Source: Vulcanimicrobiota bacterium (GTDB lineage Bacteria > Vulcanimicrobiota > Vulcanimicrobiia > Vulcanimicrobiales > Vulcanimicrobiaceae). Taken from it: 64,000 bases of DNA. Of the stretch, positions 43,525 to 52,510 are shown piece by piece. Where the stretch lies: the NCBI GenBank assembly GCA_027306785.1, contig DAHUZB010000022.1, forward strand, positions 62,001-126,000. The letters are read 5' to 3'. Below the pieces are notes generated by a model that saw nothing but the letters and a program-made list of their open reading frames with translations, did not search any database and had not been told where the DNA came from. The first letter of the stretch is position 1. Each line of letters begins with the position of its first letter. A program made the position numbers and the translations under genes.

Positions 43525-44684
43525 GCGCGCACCGCCGCCCCGAGCCCGGCGAGCGCATCGAGTGCGTCGTCCGCACCCGGCGCGCGATCGCGAAACGGCG
43601 CGACGTCGTACCGAAACGCGGGATGTTCCGCGAGCGTCCGCGCGCCGATGCGTCGATCCAGGCCGCGCCGATAGACGTTCGGGCCGACGAGATGTCGAGC
43701 ATGCGCGCACGGCTCGTCGAAAAAGCCCGGCCAGTGCGCGAGCCAGATGCCGACGATCGGCCGCTCGCCGATCGCGAGGGCAAGGTGCAGCGGCCCGGAC
43801 GCGACGCCGACGTACGCGTGCGCGGCGCGTATCACGCTTTGCAGCACGTGGGCGAAGGGCAGATCGAGGTCGCCGAAAAGATCGGTCGTGGTCGGCGCGA
43901 GCCCGGGCGCTCGGCCGATCTCGGCGGAGGTGCGCTCGTCGACGGTGAGCACGACGGCGCGCTCGTCGCGCTCGCGCAGGCGGTGCGCGAACGCGAGAAC
44001 ATCGGCCTCCGGCCACACCTTATCGGGCTGCGTGTGGCCGCCCGCTGAAAGTACGTAGAGTCGTTGGCCCGAACCGACGTGCGTGCGCAGGCGCGCCTCG
44101 ACGAGCGCACGCGCTTGCGCGGGGGCATGGAGCGCGAGCGCCGAGCGCAGCGGCCGTTCGAGCGCGCCGTCGCGCAGACGTGAGGGGTCGACGAGCTTGC
44201 CGATGAGATGACGCGCCTTCGTGTGATACGGAAACGGGTGCGAGCCGAGCGGCTCCGGATAATCGGTGTAGAGCAGTGCATCGATGCGCTCGCGAGCGAT
44301 CGTCTCGCGTAACGGCTCGGGCACGAAGAAGCGCTCCGGGCGATTGCGAATGCGCTTGAACGCGATGCCGAAATGTCGGGGCGCACCGAGTTCGCGTCCG
44401 TCGCCGGGGCGGCGAACGCCCGAGAAGAGCGGGGTGATGCCCGTCGCACCATCGTACAGATGGGTGAAATCGTCACCGAAACGCGCGATGTAATACCGAT
44501 TCGACGGCTCGAGCAGCGGCAGCACGTACGAGAAGTGGACGAAGTCGCCGAAGCCGTGGGGCCAGTAGATCAAGACGCGACGGTCGCGTAGCGCGGCGAA
44601 GGCGCCGGCGCGCTCGTCGTAGACCGGAAGTTCGACGTTCGCGTTCGCGACGTCGGCCGCGCGGCGCGCCAAGAGATTCAGCAT
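43521..44684 (-). CDS. GT9 (heptosyltransferase-like) glycosyltransferase
   Basis: The protein has 387 residues from the ATG at 44684; an upstream ATG at 44738 is possible. It has an N-terminal GFGDFVHFSYVLPLL, the VLSAGGHTQPDKVWP nucleotide-sugar region and the late HAYVGVASGPLHLALAIGERPIVGIW typical of LPS heptosyltransferases and other GT9 enzymes. It is cytoplasmic and adds a sugar to a lipid or glycan. The downstream GT2 gene is translationally coupled. The real sugar cannot be told. Confidence 0.9.
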   Translation of the reverse strand: MLNLLARRAADVANANVELPVYDERAGAFAALRDRRVLIYWPHGFGDFVHFSYVLPLLEPSNRYYIARFGDDFTHLYDGATGITPLFSGVRRPGDGRELGAPRHFGIAFKRIRNRPERFFVPEPLRETIARERIDALLYTDYPEPLGSHPFPYHTKARHLIGKLVDPSRLRDGALERPLRSALALHAPAQARALVEARLRTHVGSGQRLYVLSAGGHTQPDKVWPEADVLAFAHRLRERDERAVVLTVDERTSAEIGRAPGLAPTTTDLFGDLDLPFAHVLQSVIRAAHAYVGVASGPLHLALAIGERPIVGIWLAHWPGFFDEPCAHARHLVGPNVYRRGLDRRIGARTLAEHPAFRYDVAPFRDRAPGADDALDALAGLGAAVRA

Positions 44685-48037: not shown

Positions 48038-48068
48038 TTGACCTTGACGTTACGTCATAGCGTATCGT
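48038..48068 (+). promoter_or_regulatory. MerR-type promoter with 19-base spacer
   Basis: TTGACC (48038-48043) and a TATCGT -10 (48063-48068) are 19 bases apart, the long spacer typical of MerR-regulated promoters. Between them lies TGACGTTACGTCA (48045-48057), a perfect palindrome suited to a MerR dimer. The regulator gene starts directly after, so autoregulation is expected. Confidence 0.75.
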
Positions 48069-48075
48069 GCGGAGC

Positions 48076-48852
48076 ATGCGAACGGTGATGGAGTCGAACG
48101 ACCGCGGCCTCTGCCGCGCTAAGGAATTCGCGGTCAAAGCGGGGGTAACGGTGCGCACGCTGCACTTTTACGACCGCATCGGGCTGCTCGTTCCGAGCGC
48201 GCGCGAGGAAAACGGCTATCGCCTCTACGGTGATGCCGATCTCGAACGGCTGGAGCAGATCCTCGCCCTGCGATTCGTCGGCTTCGAACTGGAACGCATC
48301 AAACGCCTACTCGAAGGACCTCCGCGCCCGCTCGGCGTCGCGCTGCGCCTCCAGCGCGCGATCATCCAACAGGAGCATCGGCGTCTCGAACTCGCCCTCG
48401 CGGCGATCGACGAAGCCGAGCGCGCGCTCGCCGACGCGAACGACGACGAACGGCGCCGGGTTCTTCGTGACGTCATCAAGGTATTCAAGATGGAACACGA
48501 TTGGAACTGGACCCTCAACTACTACTCGCCGAGCGCGCGGGAACGCCTCGCCGAGATTCGACGGACCACGCCGAAGGAAACGATCGAGGCGGGGCAGCGT
48601 GCCTGGACCGAATTGATCGCGGAGGTCGAAGCCGCCGCGGACGGCGGGCTCGATCCCGTGTCGCCCGACGCTCTGGCGTTAGCAGCGCGTTGGCGCGAAC
48701 TCGTGCGCGCCTTCACGCGCGACGATAGCGAGGTCGCCGATGGGCTCAACAGGCTCCGGAGCGATCGGACGCATTGGCCCGCGGACTTCAAGCGTCCGTG
48801 GAGCGACGCCGCCGATCGATTTATCTGCGCGGCGATGCGCGGGCTCTCCTAG
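48076..48852 (+). CDS. MerR-family regulator with TipAS-like domain
   Basis: The protein has about 258 residues; the ATG at 48076 is near the predicted transcript start, and 48088 is an alternative. The N-terminal MerR helix-turn-helix is clear (AKEFAVKAGVTVRTLHFYDRIGLLVPS, YRLYGDADLERLEQILALRFVGF). After a long coiled coil, the C-terminus (NYYSPSARERLAEIRR, AGQRAWTELIAEVEAAADGGLDP) resembles the TipAS antibiotic-binding domain. It likely senses a small molecule and twists its own promoter. It is divergent from RNase H. Confidence 0.92.
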   Translation: MRTVMESNDRGLCRAKEFAVKAGVTVRTLHFYDRIGLLVPSAREENGYRLYGDADLERLEQILALRFVGFELERIKRLLEGPPRPLGVALRLQRAIIQQEHRRLELALAAIDEAERALADANDDERRRVLRDVIKVFKMEHDWNWTLNYYSPSARERLAEIRRTTPKETIEAGQRAWTELIAEVEAAADGGLDPVSPDALALAARWRELVRAFTRDDSEVADGLNRLRSDRTHWPADFKRPWSDAADRFICAAMRGLS

Positions 48853-50542: not shown

Positions 50543-52510
50543 TCACGAACGCACGCGCCCGTCGGGGAGAAGTTCGGCCACCTCACCGTTGCGCACGAGT
50601 GCCGATCGGATCAATCGGGGACGCCCCTTGACCTCCATCATGATCTTCGCGACGTACTCACCCACGAGTCCGATCGCGAAGAGATTGAACGATCCGAAGA
50701 ACAGGATCGCGATGAGCACCGTGGTGATGCCCTTCGGGGCGATCGTCGGCACGAGCAGCCGCAGCGCCGCCTCGACGACCGCGATGAGCAGGGAGAATCC
50801 CATCGAGAGAATGCCGAGCGTCGTGAGCATCGTGAGCGGCGTGTTGCTGAACGAAAAGATGCCGCGCTTGGCCCATTCGATGTTCTTGGCCAGGTTGTTG
50901 GTGGAGCGTCCGAACATGCGTTCCGGTCGCACGTACGAAACGCCGGTCTGTCGGAATCCGATGTACGCGCGCAACCCGCGCACGAAGAGATCGCGCTCGC
51001 CGCAGGCGAGCAGCCATCCGACGACGCGTCGATCGAGCAGCGAGAAATCGCCCGCGTCAAGCGGCATCGGCACGTAGCTGAAGGCCGAGAAGACGCGGTA
51101 GAACAGTTTGTAGAGCAATTCCCAGCCGGGTGCCATCTCGCGTTTGACGCGTCGTCCGTACACAACGTCGAAGCCGTCGTTCCACTTTTCGTAGAATTGC
51201 TCGATCAATTCGGGCGGATCTTGCAGATCGCCGTCGAGCAGCACGACGCCGTCTTTGGTAGCGAGTTCCATGCCGCTGCGAAACGCCATCTGCGAGCCGA
51301 AATTGCGCGAATGCGAGATGCCGATCACGTTCGGATCGCGGGCGCTGATCTCTCGAATCACCGATGCACCGTCGTCGGGGCTGCAATCGTCGACGAAGAT
51401 GATTTCGTGCTCCACGTTGAGCTTGGTGAAGACGGCCTTGAGGCGCTCGTACATCACGGGAATGGCCTGCGCATCCTTGTAGCAGGCGACGATCGCGCTC
51501 ACGCTGCGCGCCTTACGGCGCATCGATTTGTTCGCCGTGACGGCGAACTGCGTCTCGTCGAGATCGCGAATCCACGCAAAGGTAGCGCGCAGCCCGTCGA
51601 CGAGCGCGGTGGTTGACCGCCAGCCGAGTTCGCCCTCGGCTTTGGCGGGCTCCGCATACCATTCGGCGAGATCCCACGCGCGATTGTTCATCGCGCCGAA
51701 GACGGGTTCGCCCGGCACCGCGAAGGTCGTTTTCACGAGGGTGGCCAGCTCGCCGATCGTCGTGCGTTCGCCGGTGCCGATGTTATAGCTCTCGCCATAG
51801 AGCCCCGGATGCATTTTGGCAGCCGCCAGCACGAACGCGCGGCAGACATCGTCGACGTAGACGAAGTCGCGCGAGATGCGTGCGTCGACGAACTTCGGGA
51901 AGTCGCCTTTCGAGGCGGCGCGGAGCACCTGCGGAATCAGGCGCGAGGTATCCTCGAGCGGCCCGTAGACCGCATAGAGGCGCAGGTTGACGCACGGAAA
52001 GCCGTGATGTTTGCCGAGAAAGCGCAGGTGCGACGCGGCCGCGATCTTGGAGACCGAGTAGAAGCTGTTGGGTTCGAGGGCGCCCTCTTCGCTCGGAGCC
52101 GAGCAGTTGGTACCGTACTCCGATGAACTTCCCGCGTGGACGTATGCCGCGAAACGCCCTTCGCGCAGCAGGCCGGTCAGCGTGGTGAGCGCCGTGAAAT
52201 TCGTGCGGTAGATGCGTTCGGGATCGCTTTCGAACGCGTACCCGCCGTAGGCCACGCAATCGAAGACCGTCTGCGGCCCGATCGTCTGCACCAAATTTTT
52301 CACCGCGGCCGGATCGGTCAGATCGACGGTGAGCACGAACTCGTCCTTCACGTCGGCGAGGCGCCAGCTCTTGGCACGCTGCTCGACGGCGAAAACGTCG
52401 CTGCGATGCGCGGCCAACATGCGGAACAGATTCGCGCCGACGAAGCCGGAGCCGCCGGTCACGAGGATCGGCCCGCGCAGCGCGCGGATAAACTCGGCGA
52501 TATCGCTCAC
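50543..52510 (-). CDS. fused NAD-dependent epimerase/dehydratase and family 2 glycosyltransferase
   Basis: A single 655-residue frame starts at a GTG in a GTGA overlap with the transketolase gene. Residues 1-325 are an extended-SDR sugar-nucleotide enzyme: TGGSGFVG at 18-25, SSSEYG near 130 and the catalytic Tyr151/Lys155 in YSVSK. After a short linker (about 320-336), residues 337-655 are a DPM1/GtrB-like GT2 enzyme: SAIVACYKD, VDDCSPDD, LDGDLQDPP and QMAFRSGMEL, then two membrane segments near 560-630. The first half would make an NDP-sugar and the second transfer it, probably to a lipid carrier. I do not know this fusion as a common architecture. Confidence 0.93.
   Translation of the reverse strand: MSDIAEFIRALRGPILVTGGSGFVGANLFRMLAAHRSDVFAVEQRAKSWRLADVKDEFVLTVDLTDPAAVKNLVQTIGPQTVFDCVAYGGYAFESDPERIYRTNFTALTTLTGLLREGRFAAYVHAGSSSEYGTNCSAPSEEGALEPNSFYSVSKIAAASHLRFLGKHHGFPCVNLRLYAVYGPLEDTSRLIPQVLRAASKGDFPKFVDARISRDFVYVDDVCRAFVLAAAKMHPGLYGESYNIGTGERTTIGELATLVKTTFAVPGEPVFGAMNNRAWDLAEWYAEPAKAEGELGWRSTTALVDGLRATFAWIRDLDETQFAVTANKSMRRKARSVSAIVACYKDAQAIPVMYERLKAVFTKLNVEHEIIFVDDCSPDDGASVIREISARDPNVIGISHSRNFGSQMAFRSGMELATKDGVVLLDGDLQDPPELIEQFYEKWNDGFDVVYGRRVKREMAPGWELLYKLFYRVFSAFSYVPMPLDAGDFSLLDRRVVGWLLACGERDLFVRGLRAYIGFRQTGVSYVRPERMFGRSTNNLAKNIEWAKRGIFSFSNTPLTMLTTLGILSMGFSLLIAVVEAALRLLVPTIAPKGITTVLIAILFFGSFNLFAIGLVGEYVAKIMMEVKGRPRLIRSALVRNGEVAELLPDGRVRS

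Follow-up and report, generated by a model that had tools for sequence, protein, structure and literature searches.

Lipid-linked sugar pathways usually consist of separate enzymes. ArnA is a bifunctional fusion that contains an NDP-sugar SDR and acts shortly before the polyprenyl-phosphate transferase ArnC, but its fusion partner is a formyltransferase and not a lipid-linking transferase. GtrB of Synechocystis (sll0501, PDB 5EKE/5EKP), a transferase of the same type as ArnC, has no SDR domain; its D157N mutation abolished activity (PMC4728340). In Streptococcus mutans a GT2 enzyme, PgfS, and an SDR epimerase, PgfE, are encoded together in the pgfS-pgfE operon (PMC5856776). The two are separate proteins, and no transketolase has been described in the pgf operon.

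Split-gene transketolases have been proposed for the branched sugars of miharamycin and amipurimycin, where they are accompanied by an oxidoreductase and would act on a keto sugar (PMC12247030). According to this 2025 review, such transketolases are proposed to put a hydroxyacetyl unit on keto sugars and none has been tested in vitro; the 13 candidates given there are all from Streptomycetes and are tied to secondary metabolites. The same text covers the yersiniose pathway, in which the ThDP enzyme YerE attaches a branch of two carbons to a CDP-keto sugar of the O-antigen. YerE belongs to the decarboxylase superfamily, not to the transketolases, and that text describes no fusion of it to a glycosyltransferase.

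The locus described here lies in a window of 64,000 nucleotides (the whole stretch of DNA that was analysed) from a Vulcanimicrobiota bacterium. It encodes an SDR and a GT2 transferase in a single chain, next to a split transketolase. A limited open-access literature search, which is a weak test of absence, found no title or abstract describing a fused epimerase/polyprenyl transferase, and no paper connecting a split transketolase with a polysaccharide. The features of the operon are as follows.

54200 to 53406, minus strand: tktN, N-terminal (ThDP-binding) subunit of a split transketolase (Pfam Transketolase_N; PDB 6yak, E 5.6e-47)
53409 to 52507, minus strand: tktC, C-terminal (pyrimidine-domain) subunit of the split transketolase (Pfam Transket_pyr; PDB 6yaj)
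52510 to 50543, minus strand: SDR-GT2 fusion gene, 655 aa, GTG start (open frame; fused chain read in 11 loci)
52510 to 51545, minus strand: extended-SDR nucleotide-sugar domain, residues 1 to about 320-322 (Pfam Epimerase, PDB relatives, motifs)
51508 to 50591, minus strand: GtrB/DPM1-type polyprenyl-phosphate GT2 domain, residues 335-640 (match to PDB GtrB 5ekp; catalytic residues)
50839 to 50651, minus strand: two predicted membrane spans, about residues 558-592 and 594-620 (Kyte-Doolittle)
50448 to 48862, minus strand: polytopic membrane protein, 528 aa, candidate GT-C glycosyltransferase with a GTG start preceded by GGAG (8 hydrophobic segments)

The fusion gene and its two domains

The frame runs from its GTG start at 52510 to 50543 and is open through 655 codons. 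The fusion is real and conserved, and is neither a chance event nor a frameshift, because it is uninterrupted in 11 independent loci, the window and the complete plasmid NZ_AP014705.1 among them (633-655 aa compared, no stops). The two halves are joined by a linker of about 15 residues, which is short and poorly conserved among the 11 loci. A Met near the domain junction is present in two of these loci only (the window and L052), and no internal ATG that could start the GT2 half is conserved across them. It is therefore unlikely that the GT2 half is also made on its own from such a start, which counts against one objection that the first-pass annotation had raised to its own reading, namely that the halves are made separately. 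That annotation had described a complete SDR and a complete GT2 with two membrane spans in one frame, and this description agrees with the open frame, with the two Pfam domains and with two C-terminal hydrophobic segments (spans were called where Kyte-Doolittle windows exceeded 1.6). An AlphaFold2 model of the fusion, calculated from four sequences, has a mean pLDDT of 48.6, too low for judging domain contacts.

The SDR half matches Pfam Epimerase (PF01370) at residues 15-245 with an E-value of 1.3e-45 (156 bits; cutoff 20.9). It contains the Rossmann motif TGGSGFVG, of the GxxGxxG type, and retains the Ser-Tyr-Lys site in the motif alignment (Ser128/129, Tyr151 and Lys155, the last two forming Y151-x-x-x-K155). 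The profile and both motifs place it among the extended-SDR nucleotide-sugar enzymes. Its nearest PDB relatives are UDP-glucose 4-epimerases, although its score of 82.8 bits is below the 262-bit cutoff of the GalE equivalog TIGR01179. The first-pass label of 'epimerase/dehydratase' is wider than the sequence warrants. Residues 128-133 are SSSEYG, compared to STDEVYG in RmlB, and the replacement of T-D-E by S-S-S, with Tyr151 and Lys155 kept, identifies the SDR half, as judged from sequence, as an epimerase or a ketoreductase. An NDP-glucose 4,6-dehydratase was considered and rejected because of the same replacement and a score of 97 bits against the 365-bit cutoff of TIGR01181.

Two unfused SDRs in other loci (L047:7992-8954 and L048:5863-6990) lack the catalytic Lys of the Tyr-x-x-x-K motif, having YAASL and YGAEL in its place, so that their reaction may be unusual. 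Both adjoin a polyprenyl-phosphate GT2 and rfbF/rfbG/RfbH-type genes.

The GT2 half matches Pfam Glycos_transf_2 (PF00535) at residues 338-495 with an E-value of 2.1e-22 (80.3 bits; cutoff 23.3). In the PDB profile search it matched GtrB sll0501 (5ekp, E 2.6e-54), and the alignment with GtrB runs from end to end. The DXD motif, D426/D428, is conserved among the fusion loci. Asp488, in GDF, aligns with Asp157 of GtrB and is invariant in all 11. Together with the LQDPPE motif and the two C-terminal spans, also shared with GtrB, these residues characterize the GT2 half as a predicted polyprenyl-phosphate glycosyltransferase of the GtrB/DPM1/ArnC type. Its best NCBIfam match is PgfS (NF047588), but the 205 bits do not reach the equivalog cutoff of 500; the ArnC equivalog NF007986 gave 138 bits against a cutoff of 529. 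Judged by their residues, both active sites of the fusion are intact.

Distribution and origin of the fusion

The first-pass annotation had recommended a search for the same domain order, and this search was productive. Among the 149 genomes of the phylum that were searched, seven encode the fusion (G000, G001, G008, G012, G033, G106 and G121), and all seven belong to one family. The fusions of G001, G008, G012 and G033 are 62-73% identical to the window chain. Those of three MAGs, two from Verrucomicrobia and one from Acidobacteria (L037-L039), are 65, 64 and 55% identical, and the one that Methylobacterium aquaticum carries on the complete plasmid NZ_AP014705.1 is 61% identical. The overall range is 54-73%, and at least four phyla share the conserved fusion.

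In a tree of 40 GT2 domains the 11 fused ones form a clade of their own with support 100/98, and the stand-alone GT2s that these genomes also encode fall outside it. In a tree of 24 SDRs the fused SDRs are monophyletic as well (96/92). Their sister group comprises the unfused SDRs L083 and L084 (joint group support 100/99), which are encoded directly upstream of tktN-tktC without this GT2. A long-branch warning applies to a few stand-alone rows of the trees. The monophyly of both halves is consistent with a single fusion event followed by spread. Given the shape of the trees and the patchy distribution, the history that fits best is that a GT2 was joined once to a transketolase-linked SDR and that the fusion then spread horizontally. 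A foreign base composition of the window copy was ruled out, as its GC and GC3 are those of the neighbouring genes.

The split transketolase pair and a possible pathway

The transketolase pair beside the fusion, which is absent from the first-pass annotation, is the more telling part of the operon. In the window tktN and tktC lie upstream of the fusion, and the three genes are coupled by 4-base overlaps, ATGA between tktN and tktC and GTGA between tktC and the fusion start. A split transketolase pair adjoins the fusion in every one of the 11 loci, in the order tktN-tktC-fusion in ten of them. In G121 the pair is more distant (46% and 38% identical), divergent, and located near the fusion beyond two methyltransferase genes. 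Several fusion genomes, G000 included, encode a second transketolase elsewhere (35-37% identical), and the operon pair is therefore an additional copy.

TktN carries a ThDP site (TSDGE...DxN, with Ser in place of the first Gly of GDG) and TktC carries the catalytic Glu in AEQN, as befits the two subunits of a split transketolase. At the place where the remaining transketolases encoded in these genomes read GAHAGVSVGPDG, TktC reads NGGGxxYGVxG. We take the His and Asp of the former, with the alignment to the split transketolase 6yaj, to be the sugar-phosphate-binding site of classical transketolase; all ten fusion-linked TktC proteins compared have Gly and Gln/Met instead. Split transketolases without this His/Asp pair were also observed at L065, L073, L074, L078, L086, L088 and L089, several of them in sugar loci; L086 and L088 are surrounded by genes of the nucleotide-sugar type, which encode SDRs and, as judged by eye, HldE- and GmhA-like proteins. 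The change thus marks a wider group and is not specific to ketone acceptors.

These genes can be arranged into one pathway. A keto sugar bound to a nucleotide would receive a two-carbon ketol unit from the transketolase pair, or the pair would make an unusual sugar unit in some other way. The NDP-sugar would then be reduced or epimerised by the SDR half, and at the inner membrane face the GT2 half would pass the sugar from its nucleotide carrier to undecaprenyl phosphate. The downstream GT-C-type membrane protein would attach the sugar from this lipid carrier to a surface glycan. The fusion would keep a rare NDP-sugar close to the membrane enzyme that uses it. It appears somewhat probable that the fusion is a two-domain enzyme joining consecutive steps of one pathway, with the transketolase/SDR/GT2/GT-C scheme taken as a whole. 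The substrate, the branching and the channelling are what we infer; channelling of the NDP-sugar between the halves is plausible. Branching by the transketolase, suggested by analogy with the split transketolases of the review (PMC12247030), is the weakest step, as the window operon encodes no source of a keto sugar. The likeness to the miharamycin and amipurimycin systems, as far as these are described there, consists of a split transketolase and an oxidoreductase for a keto sugar, whereas in the fusion loci the partner is a lipid-linking transferase and the phyla are different. With YerE, as presented in the same text, the likeness would be ThDP-dependent branching of a sugar; here the ThDP genes are followed at once by an SDR gene.

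An ordinary UDP-sugar 4-epimerase might instead feed the GT2 half, as PgfE and PgfS are paired in their operon (PMC5856776), while the transketolase supplies sugar phosphates to another branch. We regard this as possible but rather unlikely. The PDB relatives of the SDR half, its intact Ser-Tyr-Lys site and the PgfS match of the GT2 half all speak for such an epimerase, but the GalE score falls below its cutoff, the sister SDRs also adjoin a transketolase pair, without this GT2, and the strict transketolase linkage would be left without a reason. Less probable still is that the fusion serves mainly as a membrane tether for a soluble enzyme or as a stabiliser of expression, the halves working on different sugars without channelling. 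The short, variable linker and the AlphaFold2 model, which gave no domain interface, would suit a tether; the single origin, the adjacency of unfused pairs in sugar loci and the fact that all 11 loci have kept both active sites argue against it. An assembly or sequencing artefact that joined two genes, which the first-pass annotation had named as a possible refutation, has a negligible probability: nothing was found in its favour, and it would have to recur in eleven independent loci of four phyla, one of them on a complete plasmid.

The conserved, single-origin fusion inside a portable sugar module recurs across distant phyla together with a dedicated enzyme pair for carbon-carbon bond formation, which points to a compact route to an unusual sugar of the cell surface. 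The fusion places an NDP-sugar step and a membrane-loading step in one chain that has been kept through cross-phylum transfer. A more specific proposal is offered tentatively and is doubtful: a portable pathway in which a two-carbon ketol branch is put onto an NDP-keto sugar, and the fused reductase-transferase finishes and lipid-links the product for the envelope glycans of several phyla. If true, transketolase-made branched sugars would occur in envelope glycans, outside the secondary metabolites of Streptomyces. Should the transketolase act on a keto sugar, the locus would offer cloneable enzymes, one set of which a named Methylobacterium strain carries on a plasmid of complete sequence. 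These enzymes bear on a reaction that the 2025 review lists as proposed and never shown in vitro (PMC12247030).

Neighbouring genes and precursor supply

In Roseibium and Sinorhizobium, unfused distant relatives of the SDR and the GT2 are encoded by adjacent genes, accompanied by rfbF/rfbG/RfbH-type genes. Their proximity in sugar loci makes it plausible that both belong to one pathway and that the GT2 takes its donor sugar from the SDR.

The operon of the window lacks a nucleotidyltransferase, a dehydratase or any other keto-sugar source of its own. In G121 and G106, genes for CDP- or dTDP-glucose 4,6-dehydratases are present in the vicinity of the fusion. A dTDP-glucose dehydratase is encoded in all seven family genomes with the fusion; it may serve rhamnose synthesis only, because RmlD is also present in each. 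CDP-glucose 4,6-dehydratase was rejected as a universal precursor enzyme, as G000, G033 and G106 have no close match to it (best 30-32% identity).

The gene downstream of the fusion is not constant between loci. Four loci encode a polytopic protein of 526-528 aa near the fusion: the window, where its gene comes directly after the fusion, and three other genomes. The window copy matched no Pfam or GT-C clan profile and nothing in a PDB profile search, and one homologue matches DUF2079 (E 2.9e-7); the protein is a weak candidate for a GT-C glycosyltransferase. Two loci have a YfhO-type membrane protein near the fusion, and in several a SAM methyltransferase adjoins it. In G106 a 657-aa protein without a Pfam match is encoded two genes downstream of the fusion (L051:5176-7149). 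Besides the fusion itself, G121 has a transketolase pair followed by a second GT2, 29% similar to the fused one (L050:12520-15363). In the window, the downstream end of the operon adjoins the gene of a MerR regulator (48067-48852, opposite strand) that contains a TipAS domain for antibiotic recognition, and a glycosyltransferase family 9 (heptosyltransferase-like) gene lies nearby at 43551-44600.
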